The notes under the pieces: generated by a model | The model's input: only the letters and a program-made list of their open reading frames with translations | What the model was told of the DNA's origin: nothing | Database searches by the model: none | Part shown: positions 44,296 to 63,878 of the stretch, in pieces | How the letters are laid out: each line of letters starts with the position of its first letter | Position numbering within the stretch: position 1 is the first letter of the stretch | From: Herbidospora cretacea | GTDB lineage: Bacteria; Actinomycetota; Actinomycetes; Streptosporangiales; Streptosporangiaceae | Assembly (NCBI RefSeq): GCF_001570605.1 | Contig: NZ_BBXG01000010.1 | Coordinates: 74,592 to 138,591, forward strand | DNA length: 64,000 bases | Reading direction: 5' to 3' | Program-made: the position numbers and the translations under genes

Positions 44296-45762
44296 TCAGC
44301 CCAGAGATCGGAGGGCCAGGCCCAGGCCCAGGACGATGACGATCACGGCGGTGCCGATCGGGGCCAGGCGGGAGAGGTGGGTGGCGGTGGCGGAGAGGCG
44401 GCCCAGTTTGAGGAGGGCTTCGGCTCGGTCGGCGAGTTTGACCAGCAGGAGGCCGGTGGCCGTGAGGGTGGCGGCCATGCCGGCGCCGTAGGCGAGGACC
44501 AGGGCCACGCCGAACCAGGTGCGGCCCAGGGCGATCGCACCCAGCAGGACGATCAGGGCCGAGGGGCTGGGGACAAGGCCGCCGGCGATGCCCATGCCGA
44601 TCAGGCCTGTTCGTGACTGCTTGTCGGGTGTCGTGGTGGTCTCCGCGCGGGTCAGAACCGCCACCGCATGTCCCGAAATTTCGTGACCCGTTTCGTCGTG
44701 GCCGTGCCCGTGGCCATGTCCGTGGCCATGTCCGTGGCCATGCCCGTGGCCGTGCCCGTGCCCGTGCCCGTGGCCGTGGCCGTGGCCGTGGTTGGGGGAG
44801 GTGCCTTTCAGAGCGGTCTGGAGGAGGTGGAGGCCTATTGCGGTGACCAATGCGCCGCTGGCTGCGCCCAGCCACGTCAGCACTCGGTCGCCTGACAGGG
44901 ACGACACCGCCGTCAAAGCCAGGCCGACGACCAGGACGCCTGCCGTGTGGGTCGCTGTCACGGTGAAGCCGACGGCCAGGGCGTCTCGGGGGCGGCCGCG
45001 CCTTCCGGCCAGGTAGGCGGCCATGATGGTCTTGCCGTGGCCGGGGATCAGTGCGTGGCCCGCGCCGAGGACGAGGGCCAGGGCCACGCCGAGCAGGCCG
45101 ATGCCCACGGTCAGGGATTCGGCGCCGACCAGGTCGGTGAAGGTGCGGTCGAGAGCGGTGAGCCAGTCGCCGAGCGGGCCGGGGGCGGTGATGGCCGGGG
45201 AGGCGGTCGGGAGGACGCCGTCCGGGTTCACGGTCAGGGTGACCGCGCGCTGGTCCAAGGGCGAGGCCAGCAGGTCGTCGGGGTAGGAGCGGAGTTCGTC
45301 GCTGACGCTCGTGGCGGGGACCTCGGGAGGGGTGAGCCGGACCTCCGAGGAGGTGACGGTGATCTCGCGCCAGCCGATGCGGTCCGGGGCGTGGGCGTCA
45401 GTGAGGGTGATGCGCCCGGCAGGGACTACGTCGGCGACGAACTCGCACGCCAGGCGGGTGGTTTTCAGGCCGCCCTGGCCTTCGGGGTGGGTCAGGTCGC
45501 CGCCGGCGACGCGCCAGGGCACGCGCCGGCCGTTCACCTCCAGCGTCTGGGCGGCGGCCACGGCTGCGCATTCCGGGCGGTCGCCCTGCAGGGTGGGGAG
45601 TTCGGCCACGTCCACGACCGCGGTGTTCTCCAGGCGGTCCGCGTACAGGCGCAGGCCGTTGTAGTGGTTCACGGTGAAGTTGCCGAGAGGGTGCGCCTGG
45701 GCCGCCGTGCCCAGGGCCAGGAAGGTCGCCAGGCCGACGAGGAAGGCGCGTGCGAATCTCAT
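44296..45762 (-). CDS. NicO/RcnA-like metal transporter with His-rich loop
   Basis: 488 residues from ATG 45762, overlapping the TPR gene by 4 bp. A signal peptide (1-23, ending AQA-HP) is followed by an outer domain of about 185 residues and then a NicO-type membrane domain of six to seven helices. The signature GHALIPGHGKT (235-245) fits nickel/cobalt permeases. A His-Gly loop with 16 alternating histidines (about 325-356) would face the cytoplasm or hold metal. Direction (uptake or efflux) is unknown. Confidence 0.8.
   Translation of the reverse strand: MRFARAFLVGLATFLALGTAAQAHPLGNFTVNHYNGLRLYADRLENTAVVDVAELPTLQGDRPECAAVAAAQTLEVNGRRVPWRVAGGDLTHPEGQGGLKTTRLACEFVADVVPAGRITLTDAHAPDRIGWREITVTSSEVRLTPPEVPATSVSDELRSYPDDLLASPLDQRAVTLTVNPDGVLPTASPAITAPGPLGDWLTALDRTFTDLVGAESLTVGIGLLGVALALVLGAGHALIPGHGKTIMAAYLAGRRGRPRDALAVGFTVTATHTAGVLVVGLALTAVSSLSGDRVLTWLGAASGALVTAIGLHLLQTALKGTSPNHGHGHGHGHGHGHGHGHGHGHGHGHGHGHGHDETGHEISGHAVAVLTRAETTTTPDKQSRTGLIGMGIAGGLVPSPSALIVLLGAIALGRTWFGVALVLAYGAGMAATLTATGLLLVKLADRAEALLKLGRLSATATHLSRLAPIGTAVIVIVLGLGLALRSLG
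44698..44790 (-). repeat. 6-bp His-Gly coding repeat
   Basis: Sixteen alternating GTG/ATG (His) and GCC/CCC/TCC (Gly) codons on the plus strand read as (His-Gly)n in the transporter. Such tracts change length easily and may vary the metal-binding capacity. Confidence 0.85.
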
Positions 45763-46973
45763 GAGGACCTCTGGAGGGCGGGGAGGGCGGCGGAGAAACG
45801 GGGGTTGTACTCGCGGACCAGCCGCGCGGAGTCCGTCTTCAGGCCCAGGGCCTGCTCGATCTCGGCGCGGTGGTGCATGACCAGGGCGTTGCGCCAGCCG
45901 GTCGCGGTGGCCTCCTTCGCGTGGCGCAGCGCCTCGGCGGAGCGGCCCGACCGGTGCAGGGCCCAGGCCAGGGCGTCGGCCGCGGCGACGTTGGGGTTCC
46001 TGGCGTACTCGGCCCGCGCGAAGGCGACGGCCTCCGTCGGTGAGCCGTGGTCGGCTTCGAACTCGGCCCAGGTGATGTCGTCGCGGACGCCGTTGAGTCG
46101 CATGAGTTCGCGCTGCGCCTTCAACGTCGCCCACCCCGGGTCGCGCCCCAGCGCCTTCAGGACCTCCCCCTGCTCCACCAGGGTCTGGGTCAGGGGCAGG
46201 CGGGCGGTCGAGGCGGCGTACAGGGAAGCGGCCTTCTCCAGGTCGCCGGACAGGGCGGTGACGCGCGCCAGACCGGCCCGCGCGGGGTCGAAACCCGGGT
46301 CGGCGGTCAGGGCCTTGGCGTAGTGCGACCGGGCCTCGTCGTAGCGGCCCTGGCGGAGGGCGAGTTCGCCCAGGTAGTGCTCGCAGAAGGCGACGTCGGC
46401 CGGTTGGTAGGCGTCGCGGCGGGCGTATTCGAGCATGTCGCGGGCGGTCTTCAGGTCGCCGCGCAGCTCCGCGTCGTAGGAGGCCCGGGTGAAGGACGAC
46501 ACCCCGGGCGCCAGCGACATCATCGCGTCGACCGCCTCGGTCGCCTCGGGGTAGCGGCCCAGCTGGTGGAGGCTGTCGGCGAGCACCCCGTAGGCCGGCG
46601 CGCCGTACGGGTTGACCGCGATGGCCTGGCGCGCGGTCGTGACCGCCTGGGTGAACTCGTGGCGGCCCGCCTCCAGGGAGGCCCGGCCGGTCAGTCCGGC
46701 GGCGTTGCCGGGGCGCACGGTCAGCGACTTCGCCACCGCCTGTTCGGCCTTGCCGTACCACGACGGATCGCCGGTGAGGCGGGCCCTGTCGACGTACGAC
46801 GACCCGAGGGCGGCCCACCCCTCGTAGTCGCCGGGCAGCCGGCGCAGGCGTTCCTGCAGGTCGGATGTGGGCGCTGCGGCCACTTCCGGGGCGGTGCGCG
46901 GGAAGAGGGTGGCGGCGGCGGTGATGGCGACGATCCCGGCCAGCGCCACGCCGCCGCGCTTGAGATAGCGCAT
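45759..46973 (-). CDS. Tetratricopeptide repeat protein
   Basis: 404 residues from ATG 46973; the frame opens upstream at 47036 without a start signal. An N-terminal helix (about 8-27) anchors or exports it. TPR-type units follow through most of the chain: AQAVAKSLTVRPGNAAG, RQAIAVNPYGAPAYGVLADS and AEARSHY-type repeats ending ALTADPGFDPARAGLARV. It would act as a scaffold between the secreted DUF4331 protein and the transporter encoded on either side. Confidence 0.82.
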   Translation of the reverse strand: MRYLKRGGVALAGIVAITAAATLFPRTAPEVAAAPTSDLQERLRRLPGDYEGWAALGSSYVDRARLTGDPSWYGKAEQAVAKSLTVRPGNAAGLTGRASLEAGRHEFTQAVTTARQAIAVNPYGAPAYGVLADSLHQLGRYPEATEAVDAMMSLAPGVSSFTRASYDAELRGDLKTARDMLEYARRDAYQPADVAFCEHYLGELALRQGRYDEARSHYAKALTADPGFDPARAGLARVTALSGDLEKAASLYAASTARLPLTQTLVEQGEVLKALGRDPGWATLKAQRELMRLNGVRDDITWAEFEADHGSPTEAVAFARAEYARNPNVAAADALAWALHRSGRSAEALRHAKEATATGWRNALVMHHRAEIEQALGLKTDSARLVREYNPRFSAALPALQRSS

Positions 46974-52385: not shown

Positions 52386-52401
52386 TGAATGCTTTCATTC
52401 A
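52386..52401. promoter_or_regulatory. hut operator 1, TGAATG-N4-CATTCA
   Basis: TGAATG-CTTT-CATTCA, a perfect 16-bp palindrome 12 bp upstream of the hutU start, partly overlapping the region of the ribosome site. The same arms occur at 60182-60197 before the second hut transcript. The neighbouring RpiR-type regulator is the natural candidate protein. Confidence 0.75.
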
Positions 52402-52413
52402 GGAGAGTGCGCC

Positions 52414-54060
52414 ATGCCTATCGTGCGGAGCCCCCGAGGCACGACCCTGACCGCCAAGGGCTGGCCCCAGGAGGCCGCGCTCCGGATGATCCAGAACAAC
52501 CTCGACCCCGAGGTGGCCGAACACCCCGAACAGCTCGTCGTCTACGGCGGCTCGGGCAAGGCGGCCCGCGACTGGCCGTCGTTCCAGGCGATCGTCCGGA
52601 CGCTCACCACGCTCGACCCCGACGAGACGCTGCTCGTGCAGTCGGGCCGTCCGGTCGGCGTGATGCGGACCCACGAATGGGCTCCCCGGGTGCTGATCGC
52701 CAACTCCAACCTCGTGCCCGACTGGGCCAACTGGGAGGAGTTCCGCCGCCTGGAGGCCGCCGGTCTCACCATGTACGGCCAGATGACCGCCGGTTCCTGG
52801 ATCTACATCGGCACCCAGGGCATCCTCCAGGGCACCTACGAGACCTTCGCCGCCGTCGCCGCCAAGAGGTTCGGCGGCAGCCTGGCCGGGACCATCACCC
52901 TGACCGCCGGCCTCGGCGGCATGGGCGGCGCCCAGCCGCTGGCCGTGACGATGAACGGCGGCGTGGCCATCTGCGTCGACTGCGACCCCCGGTCCATCGA
53001 ACGCCGCATCGAGCACCGCTATCTGGACGTGAAGGCCTCCTCCCTCGCCGACGCCCTGCGGATGGCCTACCAGGCCCGCGACGAGCGCAGGCCGCTGAGC
53101 ATCGGCGTCGAGGCCAACGCCGCCGACGCCCTCCCCGAACTCCTCGCCATGGGCGCCGAGATCGACGTCGTCACCGACCAGACCTCCGCCCACGACCCGC
53201 TCATGTACCTGCCGAGAGGCGTCGCCTTCGCCGACATGGCCGCCGAACGCGAGAAGGACCCGGCGGGCTTCACCGTGCGGGCCCGCGAGTCGATGGCCCG
53301 CCACGTCGAGGCCATGGTCGGCTTCCTCGACGGCGGGGCCGAGGTCTTCGACTACGGCAACTCGATCCGGGGAGAGGCGAAGCTCGCCGGTTACGACCGC
53401 GCGTTCGCCTTCCCCGGCTTCGTGCCCGCCTACATCCGCCCGCTGTTCTGCGAGGGCAAGGGCCCGTTCCGCTGGGCCGCGCTGAGCGGCGACCCGCGCG
53501 ACATCGCCGCCACCGACAGGGCGATTCTCGACCTGTTCCCCGACAACGAGCCGCTGGCCCGGTGGATCCGGCTGGCCGGGGAGCGGGTCCACTTCCAGGG
53601 CCTGCCGGCCCGCATCTGCTGGCTCGGCTACGGCGAACGCGACAAGGCGGGCGAGCGGTTCAACCAGATGGTCGCCGACGGGGTGCTCCAGGCCCCGGTC
53701 GTCATCGGCCGCGACCACCTCGACTGCGGGAGCGTCGCGTCCCCGTACAGAGAGACCGAGGGCATGCTCGACGGGTCGGACGCCATCGCCGACTGGCCCC
53801 TGCTCAACGCCATGGTGAACGTCGCCTCGGGGGCGTCGTGGGTGTCGATCCACCACGGCGGCGGCGTCGGCATCGGCCGCTCGATCCACGCGGGCCAGGT
53901 CACCGTGGCCGACGGCACCGCGCTCGCGGCCGAGAAACTGAACCGCGTCCTCACCAACGACCCCGGCATGGGCGTCATCCGCCACGTCGACGCCGGCTAT
54001 CCCGAAGCCGCCGAAGTGGCGGCCGGCACGGGGGTCCGGGTGCCGATGCGGGAGAATTGA
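52414..54060 (+). CDS. hutU: Urocanate hydratase
   Basis: 548 residues from ATG 52414 (AGGAGA upstream). Second step of histidine degradation: urocanate to imidazolonepropionate, with tightly bound NAD as electrophile. GLGGMGG (166-172) binds NAD, and Cys438 in [18 protein letters not shown] is the expected active-site cysteine. Its stop is 3 bp before the RpiR gene. The two are probably co-transcribed. Confidence 0.97.
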
Positions 54061-54063
54061 GGC

Positions 54064-54882
54064 GTGCTCGACGGTCTCGAACGCCTCCTCGACGGCCGCC
54101 GCCTCTCCCCGGCGCAGCGCCGCATCGCCCACTACCTGGGCGAACACCTCCATGAAGCGATCTTCCTGTCGAGCGTGGAGCTGGCCGAACGCGCCGGGGT
54201 GAGCCAGCCGTCGGTGACCAGGTTCGCCGCGGCGCTGGGCTTCGCCGGCTATCCGGAACTGCGCCACGCCCTGCGCCCCCTGGTGCTGGGCGGCCCGCCG
54301 CCGAGAGTGGAGGCGGGCCCCGACGCCCTCGACGCCGAGATCGGCAACCTGCGCTCCCTGCGCGACCGCGTCGAACCCCTGACCAAGACGATCGGCGAGG
54401 TCGGCGCGGCCCTGGCGGCCAGCGAGCCGCTCACCGTCCTGGGCCTGCGCGTCTCCAGCGGCCTGGCCACCACCTTCGCCTACTTCGCCCGCCGCATCCA
54501 TCCGGACGTCCGCCTGTTCACCCACGGCGGCTCGGAACTGGCCGACGGCCTCCACGCCGCCCGGCGGGCCGGGGCGGGCTGGCTCCTCGCGGTGGTCCTG
54601 CCCCGTTACCCCGCCGAGGCGGCGGCGGCCCTGACCGAGGCCCGCGACCTGGGCCTGTCGATCGCCGTGGTCACCGACCGCCCGGACGTGCCGTTCCCCG
54701 CCGACGTCGTGCTCGACGCGCCGGTCGGGGAGCGGCTGGTCTTCGACTCCCACGTGGCGCCGCTGGCCCTGGCGATGCTCCTGGTGGAGGCCATGGCCGA
54801 CGCGGCGCCGCTGCGGACCCAGGCCCGCCTGGAGGAACACGAACGCTTCACCGAGCAGACGGGCACCTTCCTGGAGCGGTGA
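54064..54882 (+). CDS. RpiR/MurR-family regulator, probable hut regulator
   Basis: 272 residues, GTG start, 3 bp after hutU. N-terminal HTH_6 domain with LSPAQRRIAHYLGEHLHEAI and AGVSQPSVTRFAAALGF, then a SIS-type sugar/phosphate-binding domain (about 120-250). Members usually bind sugar phosphates and palindromic operators. Its coupling to hutU and the shared operator at both hut promoters suggest control of histidine use, perhaps by a non-sugar ligand. Convergent with the ABC-2 genes, 7 bp away. Confidence 0.88.
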   Translation: MLDGLERLLDGRRLSPAQRRIAHYLGEHLHEAIFLSSVELAERAGVSQPSVTRFAAALGFAGYPELRHALRPLVLGGPPPRVEAGPDALDAEIGNLRSLRDRVEPLTKTIGEVGAALAASEPLTVLGLRVSSGLATTFAYFARRIHPDVRLFTHGGSELADGLHAARRAGAGWLLAVVLPRYPAEAAAALTEARDLGLSIAVVTDRPDVPFPADVVLDAPVGERLVFDSHVAPLALAMLLVEAMADAAPLRTQARLEEHERFTEQTGTFLER

Positions 54883-54889
54883 GGGCCCC

Positions 54890-55639
54890 TCAGGCGGCGA
54901 GCCGCCGCAGTGACCGCATCGACCAGACCAGCGTCAGCATCGCCAGCCCGATGAGCAGCGCGAACGCGATCGGGATCGTCGAGTCGCCGAGGTCGCCGCG
55001 GAACAGCGAGCGGCCGGCCTCCACGCCGTAGTAGAGCGGGTTGAATTTGGCCAGCGTCTGGAGCCAGTCGGGGCCGAGGGAGACCGGCAGGAACAGGCCC
55101 GCGATCAGGGTCAGCGGCATCGCGAAGAACTGCACGAGCTGCGAGACGCCGTTCTCGTCCTTGATGGCCAGCGCCAGGCCGTAGGAGAGGCTGGCGGCGA
55201 ACAGGCCGGTCACGGCCATCAGCAGCAGCATGATGAGGAAGCCGGGCACGCCGATCCGCAGCCCCATCAGGATGGCCACGCCCATGACCAGGATCGCCTG
55301 GAGCACCAGGACCAGCATGTCCTTGGCGACCCGGCCAAGGATGATCGCGGGCGGCCACGCCGGGGAGACCGCCAGCCGTTCGAGCACCCCGTTCCGGGTC
55401 TCGTTGATCATGCCGAAGCCGGCGAACAGCGAGCCGAACAGGGCGATCATCATCATCGAACCGGGGGTGAACATGGCCAGCACCTCGGGCATCGAGCCGC
55501 TGGAGGTCGTCTTCCCGAGCAGCGGCGCGAAGAAGACCAGATAGAGGACCGGCTGCATGATGCCGAACAGCGGCCACACCGGGTTGCGGAACAGGAACCG
55601 GAGTTCGTAGACGAGGAAGAGGGAGATCTGACGGATCAT
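54890..55639 (-). CDS. ABC-2 type permease (DrrB-like)
   Basis: 249 residues with six helices. The NGVLERLAVSPAWPPAIILGR loop is the DrrB-family signature. It forms an exporter with the ATPase encoded immediately upstream (overlap of 4 bp). Substrate unknown. Confidence 0.92.
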   Translation of the reverse strand: MIRQISLFLVYELRFLFRNPVWPLFGIMQPVLYLVFFAPLLGKTTSSGSMPEVLAMFTPGSMMMIALFGSLFAGFGMINETRNGVLERLAVSPAWPPAIILGRVAKDMLVLVLQAILVMGVAILMGLRIGVPGFLIMLLLMAVTGLFAASLSYGLALAIKDENGVSQLVQFFAMPLTLIAGLFLPVSLGPDWLQTLAKFNPLYYGVEAGRSLFRGDLGDSTIPIAFALLIGLAMLTLVWSMRSLRRLAA

Positions 55640-56595
55640 GCGGCATCTCGCAGGGATCGGCCCGTGTGGCGGAGGAAGACGTCGTCGAGGGTGGCCCGGT
55701 CGAGGGAGATCGACTCAAGGCTCAGGGAGCGCTCTTCGAGCACCCGCAGCAAATGGGGGAGGCCGTGTTCGCCGTCGTCGAGGTAGGCCCGCAGCAGGCC
55801 GTCCTCGGTGCGCACCTCCTTGACGTAGGACTGCGCGCGCAGCGCCTCGGCCGCCTCGTCGACGCCCTTCAGCTTGAGCGTGACGACGTCGCCGGCGACC
55901 TCCTTCTTGAGGGAGGCCGGAGTGCCCTCGGCGACGACGGTGCCGTTGTCGATGATGACCAGGCGGTCGCAGAGCGCGTCGGCCTCGTCGAGGTAGTGGG
56001 TGGTCAGCAGCACGCTGGTGCCCCGGTCGCGCAGGGCGCGCACCTCGTCCCACAGGTTGGCGCGGTTCTGCGGGTCGAGCCCGGTCGTGGGCTCGTCGAG
56101 GAAGACCAGCGGGGGAGCGGTGACCAGGCCGAGCGCGATGGCGAACCGGCGCTTCTGCCCGCCGGACAGCGTGCGGGCCGGGCGGCGGGCGATCTCGGTC
56201 AGGCTGAACGCGGCCAGCAGCTCGTCGGCGCGGGCCTGGGCGGCCTTCTTCGACAGCCCGGCGATCCGCCCGGCGAGCATGAGCTGGTCGATGCCGGGGT
56301 TGTTCTCGTCGACGCCGCCGGCCTGGCTGACGTAGCCGATGCTCTCGCGGACCTTCGCGGCCTCCTTGACCACGTCGAACCCGGCCACCCGGGCGGTCCC
56401 GGCGGTGGGGGCGATGAAGGTGGCGAGCATCCGGACGGTGGTGGTCTTGCCCGCGCCGTTGGGCCCGAGCGCGGCGAAGATCTCGCCCTCCCGGACCTCC
56501 AGGTCGATGCCCCGGACGGCCTCGACCTCCTCGGTCTTGCCACGGCCGCGTTTGGCGTGGAAGGTCTTGCGCAACCCGTGCGCCTCGATGATCAT
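55636..56595 (-). CDS. ABC transporter ATPase (DrrA-like)
   Basis: 319 residues from ATG 56595 (AAAAGG upstream; six codons downstream of the frame opening). Walker A LGPNGAGKTTT (43-53), signature LSGGQKRRFAIALGL, Walker B VFLDEPTTGLD. The C-terminal 100 residues match the DrrA extension. It partners the ABC-2 permease, and a PadR-type gene lies 67 bp upstream, as in many drug-resistance exporters. Confidence 0.93.
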   Translation of the reverse strand: MIIEAHGLRKTFHAKRGRGKTEEVEAVRGIDLEVREGEIFAALGPNGAGKTTTVRMLATFIAPTAGTARVAGFDVVKEAAKVRESIGYVSQAGGVDENNPGIDQLMLAGRIAGLSKKAAQARADELLAAFSLTEIARRPARTLSGGQKRRFAIALGLVTAPPLVFLDEPTTGLDPQNRANLWDEVRALRDRGTSVLLTTHYLDEADALCDRLVIIDNGTVVAEGTPASLKKEVAGDVVTLKLKGVDEAAEALRAQSYVKEVRTEDGLLRAYLDDGEHGLPHLLRVLEERSLSLESISLDRATLDDVFLRHTGRSLRDAA

Positions 56596-56662
56596 TCGGA
56601 AACCTTTTCGCATAGGGGGATGACCCAGCCTCGGGGATGACGCCGGGTGAAGGTCAACCGGT

Positions 56663-57193
56663 TTACGGCAGCTCGCCGTCCTCGACCCGCCCGACCGCGT
56701 CCTCGATCCAGTCGACCTGCGCCCGGAGCTGGGCGTTGGCCAGCCGGATGCACTCGTCGACGTGACGGGGGGCGTCGAAGGCGAACTTGGCCTGCAGCGC
56801 GCGTTCGGTGGCCGAGACGGCCGCCCGCAGCGCCACCAGGCGGGCCTCCATGGCGTTGACCAGGTCGGCGGGCGACAGCCGGTCCAGGAACGTCAGCGCG
56901 ACCTGGAACGGGTCGACGATCGGCTTGATCTCCCACCAGTAGGTGAGGAGCTGGCGCTGGAACTCCTCGCGGCCGATGGCGGTGATCTCGTACACAGTCT
57001 TGCCCGCTTTGCCCTGCTCGACGACGGCGAGCAGGCCTTCGTCGGCCATCTTGGCGAGCCCGTGGTAGATCGACCCGTAAGCCACGTTGGCCCAATAACC
57101 GGCCCCCCACAGTTCCAGGCGGCGGCGCACCTCATAGCCGTGCAGCGGCCCGTCGAGCAGAGTGCCCAGGATGAGGACCCTTGTGGAGGACAT
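56663..57193 (-). CDS. PadR-family transcriptional regulator
   Basis: 176 residues from ATG 57193 (homologues begin ahead of LILGTLLDGPLHGYEV). Winged helix with NVAYGSIYHGLAKMADEGLL and a helical dimer tail. It probably represses the DrrAB-like genes that follow and itself. The start codon is only one base from a palindrome at 57195-57218, with no clear ribosome site between. Confidence 0.9.
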   Translation of the reverse strand: MSSTRVLILGTLLDGPLHGYEVRRRLELWGAGYWANVAYGSIYHGLAKMADEGLLAVVEQGKAGKTVYEITAIGREEFQRQLLTYWWEIKPIVDPFQVALTFLDRLSPADLVNAMEARLVALRAAVSATERALQAKFAFDAPRHVDECIRLANAQLRAQVDWIEDAVGRVEDGELP

Positions 57194-57194
57194 G

Positions 57195-57218
57195 CTCAAA
57201 TTTATACACAAATTTGAG
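57195..57218. promoter_or_regulatory. Palindrome CTCAAATTT-N6-AAATTTGAG, PadR operator
   Basis: Perfect 9-bp arms directly upstream of the padR start. A/T-rich against the 70% G+C background, so it also likely holds promoter elements. Binding here would block expression of padR and the exporter genes, the usual PadR autoregulation. Confidence 0.7.
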
Positions 57219-57313
57219 TAGCTGTCGCAACGGCTTTCCCGCCGTCGACGGTTCAAGAGCCTTCTTCCGTTACGCCTCCGGAGTGGCAGACCGCCCGACC
57301 ACCCTGGGGCCGG

Positions 57314-58114
57314 TCAGCCCGCCACCTGCACGAGGTACATCGCCGCGGTCGCCGTGGCCGACGTGCCGAGGATCAGCACCAGCGCCCGCTCACCGGCGCG
57401 TTCGGCCGTCCTGGCCCCGAGGAGCGCCCCGGCGATGCCCCCCAGACCGGTCGCGATGCCGATGTGCCAGACCGGGCTGGCCGGCGGCGTGCCCACCGCC
57501 AGGGTGTCGAACAGGGTGTAGGCGATCAGGCCGGTGAGCGAGGTCGACAGTGTGGAGGTCAGGGCCAGGGGCGCGCTGCGCCGGACCGGCTGGCGCAGGA
57601 CCGCCACCAGGATGGGGGCCAGCACCGACCCGCCGCCGATGCCTATGGTGCCGCCGACCGCGCCGGTCGCCAGCACCAGGGCGGTCAGCGTGAACGGGTT
57701 GAGCGGGGGCGCGTCGTCCCCGGCCCCGGTCACCCGGCGGGGCGTCCTGCGCGCCGCCCTGACCAGGAGCTGGACCCCCAGCGGCGCGAGCACCGCGAGG
57801 ACCAGCAGCCGGAACCGGGCGGGATCGGCGAACAGCGTCACCCGCAGGAACGCCCCGAGCGCCGCCGCCGGGACGCAGGCCGCGGTGACGATCGCCAGGT
57901 CGGCGGTGCGGGCCCGCGCCGCCGCCGACCGCGCCAGCGCCAGCGGGGTCGACATGGCGTTGAACACCAGGTTGGTGGCGCTGATCGCCGGGCCGCTCAC
58001 GCCGAGCAGCCCTGCCTGCAGCGGCAGCAGGAACACCGCCCCCGACACGCCGACCGGAGTGCCGAGCGCCGCCACCACGAACCCCGCCACGAGAGCCAGC
58101 AGCACTTCAGCCAT
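57314..58114 (-). CDS. TauE/SafE-family permease
   Basis: 266 residues from ATG 58114 (AGAGGAAC upstream). About eight helices with two homologous halves, GTPVGVSGAVFLLPLQA and GAVGGTIGIGGGSVLAPIL, the family repeat. These proteins move sulfite, sulfonates or organic anions. The substrate is unknown. Divergent from an SDR gene (85-bp gap). Confidence 0.88.
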   Translation of the reverse strand: MAEVLLALVAGFVVAALGTPVGVSGAVFLLPLQAGLLGVSGPAISATNLVFNAMSTPLALARSAAARARTADLAIVTAACVPAAALGAFLRVTLFADPARFRLLVLAVLAPLGVQLLVRAARRTPRRVTGAGDDAPPLNPFTLTALVLATGAVGGTIGIGGGSVLAPILVAVLRQPVRRSAPLALTSTLSTSLTGLIAYTLFDTLAVGTPPASPVWHIGIATGLGGIAGALLGARTAERAGERALVLILGTSATATAAMYLVQVAG

Positions 58115-58199
58115 GGGGATGTTCCTCTGAATCGTGAGTTTTCCGGTAAAGATAGTGGGAAATCCGGCCCGCCCTCGCGAGGTAACTAAGGTGATCGCT

Positions 58200-58868
58200 A
58201 TGAGTGATCGACCAGTCGCCCTCATCACGGGCGGTTCCCGCGGCCTCGGCGCCGCCGTCGCGCGCGCCCTCTCCTCCACCCACGACCTGATCCTCGGCGG
58301 CAGGGGCGGAGGCAAGCTCGACGAGCTCTGCAAGGAACTCGGCGCGCGGCCCTTCCCGGTCGAGTTGACCGAGGCCACCGCCCGCGACGTCGAAGGGCTC
58401 GGCCGCATCGACCTGCTGGTGCACAGCGCCGGGGTCGTCACCCTCGGGCCCGTGGCGGAGACCCCGATCCGCGTCTGGCGGGAGACCTTCGAGGTCAACG
58501 TCTTCGCCGTGGCCGAGCTGACCCGGCTGCTGCTGCCCTCGCTGCGGGCGGCCGGGGGCCAGGTCGTTCTGGTCAACTCGGGGGCCGGGCAGCGGGCCCA
58601 CCCCGACTGGGGCTCCTACGCCGCCAGCAAGTGGGCCCTGCGCGCCTACGCCGACGTGCTCCGCCAGGAGGAGCCCGACCTGCGGGTCACCACGGTCTAC
58701 CCGGGCCGCATCGACACCGACATGCAGCGCGACGTGCGCGAGCAGGAGGGCGGCGCGTACGAGCCGGACCGCTACCTCAAGGCCGACTCGGTGGCCAGAG
58801 CGGTGGTCGCGGCGGTCACCGCGCCGGCCGACGCCCACCTGACCGAGGTGATCGTCCGGCCCCGCTAG
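58200..58868 (+). CDS. Short-chain dehydrogenase/reductase
   Basis: 222 residues from ATG 58200 (AAGGTG upstream). Classical SDR: TGGSRGLG, an Arg at the end of beta-2 region (GGRGGG) suggesting NADPH, HSAGV, YAASKWALRAYADVL, and PGRIDTDM. Substrate unknown. Divergent from the TauE/SafE gene; convergent with the radical-SAM gene, 10 bp away. Confidence 0.88.
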   Translation: MSDRPVALITGGSRGLGAAVARALSSTHDLILGGRGGGKLDELCKELGARPFPVELTEATARDVEGLGRIDLLVHSAGVVTLGPVAETPIRVWRETFEVNVFAVAELTRLLLPSLRAAGGQVVLVNSGAGQRAHPDWGSYAASKWALRAYADVLRQEEPDLRVTTVYPGRIDTDMQRDVREQEGGAYEPDRYLKADSVARAVVAAVTAPADAHLTEVIVRPR

Positions 58869-58878
58869 ATCCCGCGGG

Positions 58879-60156
58879 TCAGATGCGGCGGCGCGGGGTC
58901 CGGCGCGGATACTGCTTGGCCGTCTCGGCCAGCACCTGGGCGTGTTCGGCCTGCTTGCGCCAGTGGCCGTAGGCGTCGCCGCGCCGGGCCAGCCGGTCGA
59001 GCTCGCTCGTCGTGGTCAGCGGGATCAGCGCCGGTTCGGCGTCGCGCCACGGCGTGCCGGGCAGCGGCATGAAGGTGTGGGTGTGGATGCGGGCGCCCAG
59101 GTCGGCCAGGTCGGAGGCCAGTTTCAGGGACGCCCGCTGGTCGTCCTCGGTCTCGCCCGGCATGCCGAAGATGAAGTCGACGTTGGGCCGGAACCCGAAG
59201 TCGATCGCGATCCTGGCCGCGTCGAGCACCGGCGCGGCCCCGTGGCCCCGGCCCGAACTGGCCAGGATCCGGTCGGAGCCCGACTGGGCGCCGATGATGA
59301 TGTTGTCGTTGGCGACGTATTTGCGCAGCATCCGCATCGCCTCGGGCGTGACGTGCTCGGGGCGGATCTCCGAGGGGAAGCTGCCGAAGAACACCCGGCC
59401 GTCGGCGGGCGCCTCCTCCTTGCAGGCCACCAGCAGCTCCTCGACCTTGCCCAGGTCGGGGTCGGCGGTCTGGCTGCCGTAGCTGAGCGAGGTCGGGGTG
59501 ATGAACCGGACGTCCCGCAGCCCCCGGGCGGCCATCCGCCTCACGTGGTCGCGCACGCTCTCGACCGAGCGGTGCCGGAACTGGGCCCCGAACATGAACG
59601 GGGTCTGGCAGAACTTGCAGGTGTAGCGGCAGCCGCGGGTGATCTCGATGGGCCCGGCCCGCCCGGCCGGGAACGACGGGAAGCTGTCGAGCGGCAGCTG
59701 CGGGACGCCGGGGGTGCGGAGCGCGATCCCGTCGTGGTCGCGGATCGCCAGCCCCGGGACCCTGCGCAGGTCTGATTCGGCGACCAGGGCGATGATCGTG
59801 GTCTCGCCCTCGCCGATCGCGGCGACGTCCCAGCCCGCGTCGATCACCTGCTGGGGTTCGGCGGTCGCGTGGACACCGCCCGCCACGTGGACGACGTCGT
59901 TCCTGGTGGTGAGCGCCCTGACTTCGGCCAGTTCGGCCGTCATTAACGGGAAGTCGGGCGAGTAGAAGGACCAGAGCACCAGGACCCGGCCGGCGTCGGC
60001 CTGGCCGATCTGGATCGCCGTCTCCTCGGCGCTGGTGGCGAACCTGACCTCGAAGTCGACCGCCGGAGGCGCGGCTTCGAGGGCCGCCAGCAGGGCGTGC
60101 ATGCCGTAGGTCACCGCCTTGCGGTAACGAACGACCACGCTGACATCGAAACTCAT
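58879..60156 (-). CDS. B12-binding-like/radical-SAM protein
   Basis: 425 residues from ATG 60156; the frame continues far upstream but only as antisense of hut genes. Residues 1-135 resemble the cobalamin-type domain (without a clear B12 histidine motif), with GEGETT near 115. The radical-SAM cluster is C176-x3-C180-x2-C183 in RGCRYTCKFCQ. GMPGETEDDQRASL is the later strand of the barrel. It resembles the MJ1487-type B12/radical-SAM family of unknown reaction. Confidence 0.8.
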   Translation of the reverse strand: MSFDVSVVVRYRKAVTYGMHALLAALEAAPPAVDFEVRFATSAEETAIQIGQADAGRVLVLWSFYSPDFPLMTAELAEVRALTTRNDVVHVAGGVHATAEPQQVIDAGWDVAAIGEGETTIIALVAESDLRRVPGLAIRDHDGIALRTPGVPQLPLDSFPSFPAGRAGPIEITRGCRYTCKFCQTPFMFGAQFRHRSVESVRDHVRRMAARGLRDVRFITPTSLSYGSQTADPDLGKVEELLVACKEEAPADGRVFFGSFPSEIRPEHVTPEAMRMLRKYVANDNIIIGAQSGSDRILASSGRGHGAAPVLDAARIAIDFGFRPNVDFIFGMPGETEDDQRASLKLASDLADLGARIHTHTFMPLPGTPWRDAEPALIPLTTTSELDRLARRGDAYGHWRKQAEHAQVLAETAKQYPRRTPRRRI

Positions 60157-60181
60157 CGGGTCAGGGTAGCCCTCCCTGACG

Positions 60182-60197
60182 TGAATGGAGCCATTCA
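60182..60197. promoter_or_regulatory. hut operator 2, TGAATG-N4-CATTCA
   Basis: TGAATG-GAGC-CATTCA, 13 bp upstream of the M20 hydrolase start. Same arms as the hutU site at 52386-52401, different centre. Confidence 0.75.
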
Positions 60198-60210
60198 GTA
60201 GGGTGGAGTA

Positions 60211-61380
60211 ATGCTGGCGGACATCGAGCAGATCGGCAGAAATCCGCGCACCGGGGGCTATCGGCGGGACGCCTGGTCGCCCGCCGACATGCAGTTGCGC
60301 GAGTGGTTCACCCACCAGGCCGTCACCCGTGGGCTGACCAGCCACGAAGACCGCAACGGCAACCTGTGGGCGTGGTGGGGCGACCCGGCGGCCGACGGGC
60401 CCGGACTGGTCACGGGGAGCCACCTCGACTCGGTCCGCGAAGGCGGCGCGTTCGACGGTCCCCTCGGCGTGGCGTCCGCGTTCCAGGCGATCGATCTGCT
60501 CCGGGGTGACGGCTTCCGGCCCGACCGCCCGATCGCGGTCGCCTGCTTCACCGACGAGGAGGGCGCCCGGTTCGGGGTGCCCTGCATCGGCTCGCGGCTG
60601 CTGACCGGCGTCCTCGACCCGTCGCGGGCCCGCGGCCTGGCCGACGACGAGGGGCTGTGCCTCGACGAGGTGCTCCGGGGACAGGGCCGCGACCCCGGCG
60701 GCCTGGGCCGCGACGACGAGACCCTCGCCCACATCGGGGTCTTCGTCGAACTCCACGTCGAGCAGGGGCGCGCCCTCCAGGCCCCGGTGGGGGTGGCCAG
60801 CGCCATCTGGCCGCACGGCCGCTGGCGCTTCGACTTCCGGGGCACGGCCGACCACGCCGGCACCACGGCGCTGGAGGACCGCGACGACCCGATGCTCGCC
60901 TACGCCCGCGCCGTGCTCGCCGCCCGCCTCCAGGCCGAGACCCACGGGGTCAGGGCCACCTTCGGCAAGGTGCGGGTCGAGCCCGGCAACGCCAACGCGA
61001 TCCCCTCCCTGGTCACCGCCTGGCTCGACGCCCGGGGCCCGGAGACCGCCGCCGTCCGCCGCCTGGTCGAGGAACTGTCCCACGGGGTCGAGGTCACCGA
61101 GGAGTCGTGGACGCCCGAGGTGGTCTTCGACGACGTGCTGCGCCTGCGGGTCGCCTGCGCGGCCGGGTTCGACGGCCATCCCGCGCCGATCCTGCCGACC
61201 GCCGCCGGGCACGACGCCGGGATCCTCGCCTCCGCCGGGGTGCCGACCGCGATGCTGTTCGTCCGCAACCCGACCGGGGTCTCGCACGCCCCCGGCGAGT
61301 TCGCCGAACCGGCCGACTGCGTCTCCGGGGTCGTCGCGCTGGCCGCCGTGCTGGCCGACCTGACCGGGGGAGGGGCCTGA
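60211..61380 (+). CDS. M20-type amidohydrolase of the hut cluster (allantoate-amidohydrolase-like)
   Basis: 389 residues, ATG after GGGTGGAG. Zinc-dependent hydrolase with metal ligands His71 in GSHLDSV, Asp82 in AFDGPLGV and Glu116/117 in TDEEGARFG; then ELHVEQG. Homologues act on allantoate or N-carbamoyl amino acids. Between hut genes it may perform the last step, N-formylglutamate to glutamate, in place of a HutG enzyme; that is inference from position. Overlaps hutF by one base. Confidence 0.82.
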   Translation: MLADIEQIGRNPRTGGYRRDAWSPADMQLREWFTHQAVTRGLTSHEDRNGNLWAWWGDPAADGPGLVTGSHLDSVREGGAFDGPLGVASAFQAIDLLRGDGFRPDRPIAVACFTDEEGARFGVPCIGSRLLTGVLDPSRARGLADDEGLCLDEVLRGQGRDPGGLGRDDETLAHIGVFVELHVEQGRALQAPVGVASAIWPHGRWRFDFRGTADHAGTTALEDRDDPMLAYARAVLAARLQAETHGVRATFGKVRVEPGNANAIPSLVTAWLDARGPETAAVRRLVEELSHGVEVTEESWTPEVVFDDVLRLRVACAAGFDGHPAPILPTAAGHDAGILASAGVPTAMLFVRNPTGVSHAPGEFAEPADCVSGVVALAAVLADLTGGGA

Positions 61381-62711
61381 TGCAGACGTACTGGTGCGAG
61401 ATGGCCTGGGTCGGCGGCGCGGTCGCCGAAGGGGTCCAGGTCGACGTCGACGGCCACCGCGTCACCGAGGTGAAACAGGGGGTGCCGCCGAGCGGCGAGA
61501 TCCTCGAAGGCCTGACCGTGCCGGGCATGGCCAACGCCCACTCCCACGCCTTCCACCGCGCCCTGCGTGGCCACACCCAGGTGGGCAGGGGCAGCTTCTG
61601 GACCTGGCGCGAGCAGATGTACGCCGTCGCCGGCCGCCTCGACCCCGACACCTATTACCGGCTGGCCCGCGCCGCCTACGCCGAGATGGCCCTGGCCGGG
61701 ATCACCGCCGTGGGCGAGTTCCACTACCTTCACCACGATGTCTCTGGCGTCCCCTACGACGACCCCAACGAGATGGGCCACTCCCTGGTCCGGGCCGCCC
61801 GCGACGCCGGGGTGCGGCTCGCCCTCCTCGACACGTGTTATCTGTCCGGCGGTTTCGGGGCTCCCCTGGAAGGGGTGCAGACCCGGTTCGGCGACGGCGA
61901 CGTCCACCAGTGGGCCGGCCGGGCCGACCGGCTCGCCGCGGCCTACGCCGGGGCCGAGGACGTCGAGATCGGCGCGGCCATCCACTCGGTCAGGGCCATG
62001 CGCCCCGAGCAGATGCCCGTCGTCGTCGAGTTCACCCACCACCACGCGGGCCCGCTGCACGTCCACGTCTCCGAGCAGCTCGCCGAGAACGAGCAGTGCG
62101 TGGCCGCCTACGCCGCCTCCCCGGTCCGGGTCCTGCACGAAGCCGGCGCGCTGGGCCCCCGGTCCACGGCCGTCCACGCCACCCACGTCTCCGACGAGGA
62201 CGTCGCCCTGCTGGGCGGCTCGGGCACCCACGTCTGCGTCTGCCCGACCACCGAACGCGACCTGGCCGACGGCGTCTGCGCCACCCGCCGCCTCCACCTG
62301 GCCGGGAGCCCGATCACGCTCGGCTCCGACAGCCACGCCGTGGTCGACCTGTTCGAGGAGGCCCGCGCCGTCGAACTCGGCGAGCGCATCGTCAGCGGCG
62401 AACGCGGTCACTGGCGCGCCGACGAACTGCTCACCGCCGCCACCGTGACCGGCCACACCTCGCTCGGCTTCCCCGACGGCGGCCAGATCGCCCCGGGCGC
62501 CTGGGCCGATCTGGTCACAGTAAGGCTCGACTCGGTCCGTACGGCTGGCGCGACCGCCCGATCGGCAGTGGAATCGGTGGTGTTCGCGGCGACGGGGGCC
62601 GATGTCGTGTCCGTCGTGTCGGGTGGACGGCGGATCGTCGAGGCCGGACGCCATGTGACAGGTGAGATCGGCCACCTGCTGCGGGACGCCATCGGCGCGG
62701 TCCGCGGCTGA
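61380..62711 (+). CDS. hutF: N-formimidoyl-L-glutamate deiminase
   Basis: 443 residues from ATG 61380. Amidohydrolase fold with His54 and His56 in ANAHSHAFHRAL, then HVHVSEQ, HATHVSDED and LGSDSHAVVDLFEE. It deiminates formiminoglutamate to N-formylglutamate, so the route here is the five-step one. 18 bp from hutI. Confidence 0.93.
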   Translation: MQTYWCEMAWVGGAVAEGVQVDVDGHRVTEVKQGVPPSGEILEGLTVPGMANAHSHAFHRALRGHTQVGRGSFWTWREQMYAVAGRLDPDTYYRLARAAYAEMALAGITAVGEFHYLHHDVSGVPYDDPNEMGHSLVRAARDAGVRLALLDTCYLSGGFGAPLEGVQTRFGDGDVHQWAGRADRLAAAYAGAEDVEIGAAIHSVRAMRPEQMPVVVEFTHHHAGPLHVHVSEQLAENEQCVAAYAASPVRVLHEAGALGPRSTAVHATHVSDEDVALLGGSGTHVCVCPTTERDLADGVCATRRLHLAGSPITLGSDSHAVVDLFEEARAVELGERIVSGERGHWRADELLTAATVTGHTSLGFPDGGQIAPGAWADLVTVRLDSVRTAGATARSAVESVVFAATGADVVSVVSGGRRIVEAGRHVTGEIGHLLRDAIGAVRG

Positions 62712-62729: not shown

Positions 62730-63878
62730 GTGAGCGCGACGCTCTTCTATGACATCGGACTGCTCTTCACCTCCGACGGGTGCCGGGAGGAGATCGCCAA
62801 GGCGGCGGTGGTGGTCGAGGGCGCCGAGATCGCCTGGGTCGGCGAGGCCGCCCGCGCCCCGGCCGCCGACCGCCGCGTCGACGTGCGCGGCCGGGCCATG
62901 CTCCCCGGGTTCGTCGACAGCCACGCCCACCTGGTCTTCGCCGGCGACCGGACCGCCGAGTTCGCCGCCCGGATGGCGGGGGAGCGCTACACCGCCGGCG
63001 GCATCCGGACCACGGTCGCCGCGACGCGGGCCGCGTCCACCCCGGAACTGGCCACCCGGACCGCCGGGCTGGTCCACGAGATGACCAGCCAGGGCACCAC
63101 CACCGTCGAGATCAAGAGCGGCTACGGCCTGACGACCGGCGACGAGCGACGCTCCCTGGAGGTGGCGCGGGCGTTCACCGAGGAGTCGACGTTCCTGGGC
63201 GCCCACGTCGTGCCGCCCGGCGCCGACCCCGACGACTACACGCGGCTGGTGGCCGGGCCGATGCTGGCGGCCTGCGCGCCCTACGCCAAGTGGATCGACG
63301 TGTTCTGCGAGCGGGGCGCCTTCGACGAGGACCGGAGCCGGGAGATCCTGACCGCCGGGAAGGCGGCCGGGCTGGGCCTGCGGGTGCACGCCAACCAGCT
63401 CGGGGAGGGCCCCGGGGTCCGGCTGGCCTGCGAGCTCGGCGCCGCCTCCGCCGACCACTGCACCCACCTGACCGGTGAGGACGTCGGCATGCTGGCCGAC
63501 GCCGGGGTGGTCGCCACGCTGCTGCCCGGGGCCGAGTTCTCCACCCGCTCGCCCTATCCCGAGGCCCGGCGGCTGCTCGACGCCGGGGTCACGGTGGCGC
63601 TGGCGACCGACTGCAACCCCGGCTCCTCGTTCACCTCGTCGATGCCGTTCTGCGTGGCGCTGGCCGTACGCGAGATGGGGATGACCCCGGCCGAGGCGGT
63701 CCGGGCCGCGACGGCGGGCGGGGCGGCGGCGCTGCGCCGGACCGACGTCGGGGTGATCAGGCCGGGGGCGCGGGCCGACCTGGTGATCCTGGAGGCGGCG
63801 TCGTACGTGCACCTGGCGTACCGCCCCGGCGTGCCGCTCGTCACGCAGGTCTGGCAGGCGGGACGTAGGGTGGTGTGA
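62730..63878 (+). CDS. hutI: Imidazolonepropionase
   Basis: 382 residues, GTG start. Amidohydrolase with His65 and His67 in [30 protein letters not shown] and the Asp in ATDCNPGSS. It opens the imidazolone ring to formiminoglutamate, between the HutU and HutF steps. Last recognised gene of the window; hutH is not seen. Confidence 0.96.

Follow-up and report, generated by a model that had tools for sequence, protein, structure and literature searches.

Histidine utilization (hut) genes of the actinobacterium Herbidospora cretacea raise the question of which protein controls them and through which DNA sites. They were studied in a window of 64,000 nucleotides (the whole stretch of DNA that was analysed), in which hutU lies apart from a run of an M20-family amidohydrolase gene, hutF and hutI. 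The palindrome TGAATG-N4-CATTCA stands before both groups, and a gene for an RpiR-type regulator, here termed rpiR, follows hutU. Comparison of related genomes suggests, with a probability of about 0.78, that the RpiR protein locally controls the hutU-rpiR and M20-hutF-hutI operons via this palindrome, most likely by repression. The relevant features of the window are as follows.

52386..52401, no strand: putative operator 1, TGAATG-CTTT-CATTCA (TGAATGCTTTCATTCA), exact, before hutU and adjoining a Shine-Dalgarno-like GGAG (52402-52405)
52414..54060, + strand: hutU, urocanate hydratase (NCBIfam hutU, 889 bits, cut-off 375)
54064..54882, + strand: rpiR, RpiR-type regulator (HTH_6 and SIS fold), 3 bp past the hutU stop
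60176..60181, + strand: candidate -35 box CTGACG of the M20 promoter, identified by eye and not conserved across genera
60182..60197, no strand: putative operator 2, TGAATG-GAGC-CATTCA (TGAATGGAGCCATTCA), exact, located in the 17-bp spacer that separates the candidate -35 and -10 boxes
60199..60204, + strand: candidate -10 box TAGGGT, separated by 6 nt from the M20 start codon, M20 being apparently leaderless
60211..61380, + strand: M20-family amidohydrolase, heading the M20-hutF-hutI run (Pfam M20; NCBIfam name allantoate amidohydrolase)
61380..62711, + strand: hutF, formimidoylglutamate deiminase (NCBIfam hutF, 474 bits, cut-off 413)
62730..63878, + strand: hutI, imidazolonepropionase (NCBIfam hutI, 367 bits, cut-off 298)

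An earlier sequence-only reading had described the two sites as sharing identical arms around different centres, and had recognized an RpiR-family gene 3 bp behind hutU. Both descriptions were confirmed, the sites being exact and the gene product carrying HTH_6 according to Pfam.

Occurrence of the palindrome in the genome

Exact TGAATG-N4-CATTCA was detected only twice in the whole genome (8.28 Mb, 36 contigs), both copies being those at the hut promoters of the window. From base composition, 0.025 exact copies per 8.28 Mb (0.0002 per 64 kb) are expected by chance, and the pattern read backwards has no exact match in this genome. The palindrome is thus not common genome-wide; its being so would have refuted the sequence-only reading. 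Allowing up to two mismatches, the window still yielded the same two sites only, compared to a mean of 0.29 in shuffled sequences (two were reached in 4 of 100 shuffles). Three one-mismatch sites are present in the genome, with no hut-gene match in the surrounding 3 kb. Loose matches are mostly background, since 44 sites were found genome-wide with up to two mismatches versus 18 for the backwards control.

Conservation across genera

With the RpiR protein as query, 150 relatives were confirmed, the best 80 loci of which were kept; they belong to genera presumably all assignable to the Streptosporangiaceae, the closest relatives among these best 80 of 150 being from Herbidospora (92-93 % identity). 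Together with the window, they form a set of 81 loci (1.69 Mb), which were selected by their rpiR and hence do not represent a genome-wide sample. With at most one mismatch, the site is present within 250 bp upstream of hutU in 62 of 64 loci (41 exact) and upstream of M20 in 62 of 63 loci (60 exact), the window being included in both counts. The left arm reads TGAATA in 19 of the 21 one-mismatch hutU sites. All 112 exact copies in the 81 loci are located upstream of hutU (41), M20 (60), hutF (4) or rpiR (7), and none elsewhere. In these loci, 89 permuted arms gave no match, and scanning of spacers from 0 to 11 gave matches at 4 only, besides six at spacer 0 inside copies of TGAATG-CATT-CATTCA. 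In the aligned loci, the arms are nearly invariant and the central four bases variable.

Co-occurrence of palindrome and rpiR

The same 100 genomes of the family were scanned with the pattern and with the RpiR protein. The protein search matched 34 genomes, three of which (G022, G077, G097) were set aside since their best match was a paralogue of 49-50 % identity. Among the remaining 31, G032 (54 %) and G082 (58 %) were retained though distant, neither of them having an exact site. The exact palindrome is present in 32 genomes and the rpiR orthologue in 31; 25 genomes possess both, seven the palindrome only, six rpiR only and 62 neither (Fisher p 5.7e-12, a guide only, as the genomes are related). 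One of the six rpiR-only genomes (G069) has a one-mismatch site before M20. In the 25 genomes with both, each of the 41 exact sites is situated within 7.8 kb of rpiR. The backwards control yielded two matches in the 100 genomes versus 48 for the true pattern.

There are 17 loci in which hutU does not lie close to rpiR; in 11 of them the site (at most one mismatch) is found before rpiR itself, nine times within 250 bp, once at 272 bp (L028) and once 778 bp upstream of a partial match (L094). Scanning of the 17 genomes with TGAATR-N4-CATTCA revealed 18 sites, distributed over 11 genomes; by coordinates, 16 of the 18 belong to the rpiR locus. Loss of the pathway as the cause of missing sites was rejected, since hutU is located elsewhere in all 17 genomes; an rpiR relative was detected within the fetched 1.5 kb flanks of these distant hutU genes in 12 of the 17. 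In genome G383, a third exact site lies ahead of a distant hutU and was considered as an instance of regulation in trans; it aligned to the promoter of the other type of hut cluster and was counted as no support.

The RpiR protein and its ligand loop

The N-terminal HTH_6 domain of the RpiR/MurR family is present (PF01418, 56.8 bits, cut-off 28.3), while the Pfam SIS match remained below cut-off (13.7 of 25 bits). The predicted structure, composed of helix-turn-helix (HTH) and SIS parts, has a predicted local distance difference test (pLDDT) value of 91.6 and a predicted template modelling (pTM) score of 0.68. RpiR proteins are the nearest structures to the model, among them the SIS domain 3sho (template modelling score 0.87-0.90 by target length) and NanR (4ivn). 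By this model, the C-terminal domain is identified as the SIS domain of the RpiR/MurR family. Among the matches reported up to an E-value of 10, the RpiR protein had none to GntR, a separate HutC in the genome not having been searched for, and likewise none to IclR, no search having been made for a separate IclR regulator.

SIS domains usually possess a phosphosugar-binding loop rich in Ser and Thr. This loop is absent from the RpiR protein, where LPRYPA aligns with SSSGST of Vibrio vulnificus NanR, the latter presumably being the phosphosugar loop. The Ser/Thr loop was not taken as family-defining, because VWRYLR, and thus likewise RY, occupies the loop position in 3sho, a structure deposited as RpiR. 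PRYPxE is invariant in 13 orthologues, and P180 and R181 are kept in 42 relatives. Since PRYPxE replaces the phosphosugar loop, the inducer is likely to be a pathway intermediate such as urocanate, and the ligand thus presumably a carboxylate. By its domains the protein is a member of the RpiR family; it departs from the characterized members met in this comparison by the linked pathway and the ligand loop.

A hut-linked paralogue with a related site

Across the class, relatives were detected in at least 41 of the 296 genomes searched, a minimum because only eight candidates were scored per genome. In one large genus (f18/g85), presumed to be Streptomyces, a paralogue of about 50 % identity is encoded near hutU and was given the working label RpiR-B. 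RpiR-B proteins, found in the presumed Streptomyces and others, are 47-55 % identical to the Herbidospora protein, are likewise encoded near hut clusters and are associated with a palindrome equal in length and spacing. This palindrome, TGCATR-N4-YATGCA, differs from the Herbidospora site in one symmetric base and precedes either rpiR-B or the gene in front of rpiR-B.

TGCATR-N4-YATGCA was found before the RpiR-B gene in five of eight fetched loci. The RpiR-B gene is present in 58 of 61 genomes of the presumed Streptomyces. In 32 of these 58, a total of 33 sites (of 60 genome-wide) are located at most 4 kb upstream of the gene, 21 of the 33 at a distance of 59-150 bp. Only this proximity is informative, because the pattern is not enriched overall in the presumed Streptomyces (60 sites, the backwards control giving 70). 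Scans for inverted repeats in more distant hut promoters returned mostly G+C-rich noise, TGCAT palindromes being the exception.

Residues 43, 61 and 65 in the HTH region are R, A and E in 80 Herbidospora-type sequences versus L, D and A in 30 RpiR-B sequences. Their co-variation with the site is suggestive only, six further positions also differing in the compared stretch. One locus (L189 of genome G081) has a mixed site (TGAATACTTTCATGCA). The chances appear even that these proteins form an actinobacterial RpiR branch in which a phosphosugar-sensing SIS domain, carrying a loop of the PR(Y/H)PxE type, became a sensor of a histidine-breakdown intermediate, and in which protein and operator co-diverged (TGAATG with R43/A61/E65; TGCATR with L43/D61/A65).

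Promoter position and proposed mechanism

The M20 promoter of the window reads CTGACG-17-TAGGGT-6-ATG, with the palindrome within the spacer. Across loci, a TAnnnT box is located 1 bp past the palindrome in 47 of 62 M20 promoters, and in 45 of these 6-7 nt before an in-frame start codon; CATAAT or GATAAT was observed in 14 of the 62 and neither in one. As judged from this spacing, M20 is apparently leaderless. Repression is predicted because the palindrome fills the spacer of this promoter.

We infer that an RpiR dimer binds TGAATG-N4-CATTCA with one recognition helix per half-site. At M20, the bound protein would exclude RNA polymerase from the spacer of the leaderless promoter, while the site at hutU, adjoining the Shine-Dalgarno sequence, probably overlaps the promoter or start region. 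rpiR, presumably cotranscribed with hutU, would as its second gene probably be autoregulated; this follows if cotranscription holds. A histidine-breakdown intermediate, most likely urocanate formed by the separately encoded HutH, would bind to the SIS domain and release the protein from DNA. HutH could supply the inducer outside this control, since hutH has no site.

Weighing of alternative explanations

Several observations speak against control by the RpiR protein as proposed. The 80 loci and the 100 family genomes are related to one another and share some members, so that their counts are not independent. Confinement of sites to hut promoters and hutH, as envisaged in the sequence-only reading, held for the two exact sites, both at hut promoters, and failed for hutH (contig C8, 242881-244266), which has no site nearby at up to two mismatches, the closest among those listed being about 4.6 kb away. 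No clear -35/-10 pair was found at hutU. Of 11 hutF loci found without M20, seven lack the exact hutF site (one has a two-mismatch site and six have nothing under three mismatches), four possessing it. No site stands before rpiR in six of the 17 loci lacking a nearby hutU, and two of the 18 sites in these genomes lie away from rpiR (G383, contig C51; G387, contig C3). In Spongiactinospora, hutU-rpiR and the same HTH are kept and the palindrome is missing: L087 (genome G068) and genome G099 have no site at hutU and M20, and L091 has none at hutU, with no M20 in the locus. Seven family genomes without rpiR harbour one lone exact palindrome each, and the fetched 3-10 kb contain no hut gene. As to RpiR-B, 27 of the 60 sites in the presumed Streptomyces are located elsewhere, and an exact site close to the RpiR-B gene is missing from 26 of the 58 genomes.

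Of the alternatives, the one that survives best, though unlikely, is that the RpiR protein binds the sites and activates the hut operons. An activator does exist in the family, namely NanR of Streptococcus pneumoniae acting on the nan operons (PMC12713135), which also weighs against repression. The M20 site, lying between candidate -35 and -10 at 1 bp from the latter, is in the classical position of a repressor.

Slightly less probable still is that another transcription factor binds the palindrome, rpiR being a mere neighbour. The predicted binding is drawn from sequence comparison, and both the Spongiactinospora loci, with rpiR and no site, and the seven genomes with a site and no rpiR would fit this explanation. 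It is opposed by the proximity of all 41 exact sites to rpiR in the 25 co-occurring genomes, by the site before rpiR itself in 11 of the 17 loci lacking a nearby hutU, by the related palindrome upstream of the hut-linked paralogue RpiR-B, and by TGAA/TTCA half-sites resembling the operator of the RpiR protein SpNanR (PMC12713135). The link between protein and site, proposed in the sequence-only reading, thereby gains strong comparative support, to which genome-wide specificity, co-occurrence across the family genomes and the location of all 112 exact copies also contribute.

A very improbable role of the palindrome is that of an RNA hairpin in a leader, serving as attenuator or in translation control: its position next to the hutU Shine-Dalgarno sequence would suit such a role, whereas at M20 it precedes the -10 box of an apparently leaderless gene and would hence be untranscribed, and the A+T-rich arms of 6 bp form, as judged by eye, a weak stem. 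Chance likeness of the two palindromes, favoured by nothing other than the shortness of the motif, can be dismissed in view of the expectation of 0.025 per genome and is refuted by conservation at the same promoters across genera.

Comparison with known regulators

HutP of Bacillus, an RNA-binding antiterminator, controls hut, and HutC is induced by urocanate; by analogy, urocanate as inducer would be common to HutC and the RpiR protein. HutC is a proteobacterial hut repressor of the GntR family (PMC5343134), similar in acting locally on hut and belonging to a protein family unrelated to RpiR, and HutR of Corynebacterium resistens is a hut regulator of the IclR family (PMC3350403, PMC8222616). 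HutR is likewise actinobacterial with a palindromic site, but differs in its unrelated family and in the site, GTCTGWWATWCCAGAC (PMC8222616). None of HutC, HutR and HutP is of the RpiR type; the sequence-only reading had called an RpiR-type hut regulator unusual.

Within the RpiR/MurR family (NanR, MurR, RccR, HexR), the Herbidospora protein shares HTH_6, the SIS fold and a palindromic candidate operator, and differs by its tie to amino-acid degradation and by its LPRYPA loop. The operator of SpNanR is an 18-bp near-palindrome with the consensus TCTGAAACTACTTTCAAA (PMC12713135); its TGAA/TTCA half-sites are as in Herbidospora, but two bases closer together, and the two operators are unlike in arms and spacing.

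Neighbouring genes and further observations

The M20 product matches NCBIfam allantoate amidohydrolase (575 bits, cut-off 372), the match to the N-carbamyl-L-glutamate amidohydrolase ErtE being below cut-off. The gene occupies the position expected for HutG, and no N-formylglutamate amidohydrolase of the PF05013 type is encoded in the genome, an arginase-type HutG not having been searched for. Given this position and the absence of PF05013, M20 may perform the HutG step, i.e. it is possibly an N-formylglutamate hydrolase. A gene for a B12-binding radical S-adenosylmethionine protein (58879-60156 of the window) is divergent from M20, the operator region being common to both; among 62 fetched M20 loci, it adjoins M20 only in the six of Herbidospora.

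Loci L194 and L198 are likewise of the Spongiactinospora type, with hutU-rpiR, the same HTH and no palindrome. The hutU promoters of the presumed Streptomyces (L207, L209, L211, L213-L216, L219) show TTGACT, then TATTCA and mostly TGAATA further on, i.e. the same half-site as in the palindrome in outward arrangement. In five loci (L189, L192, L193, L197, L213), an RpiR relative adjoins a divergent lyase relative of 31-34 % identity to HutH. Besides hutH, the H. cretacea genome contains a second gene of the aromatic amino acid lyase family (contig C29, 64121-65350; 310.8 bits). On the minus strand of the window, an open reading frame (44296-46818) has a long His-Gly repeat inside membrane-protein-like sequence, presumably resembling nickel/cobalt exporters.

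Implications

RpiR regulators are generally regarded as sensors of sugar phosphates. Among the matches listed in the open-licence PubMed Central literature, no RpiR-type hut regulator was recognized, which argues only weakly for its absence. If true, a conserved regulon for histidine breakdown under RpiR control would widen the sensing range of the family and provide a concrete ligand hypothesis; the system has the appearance of a sugar-type sensor put to new use in amino-acid catabolism. It would also supply a local hut regulator for the Streptosporangiaceae, and perhaps for Streptomyces, together with naturally occurring pairs of protein and operator variants in which specificity could be studied.

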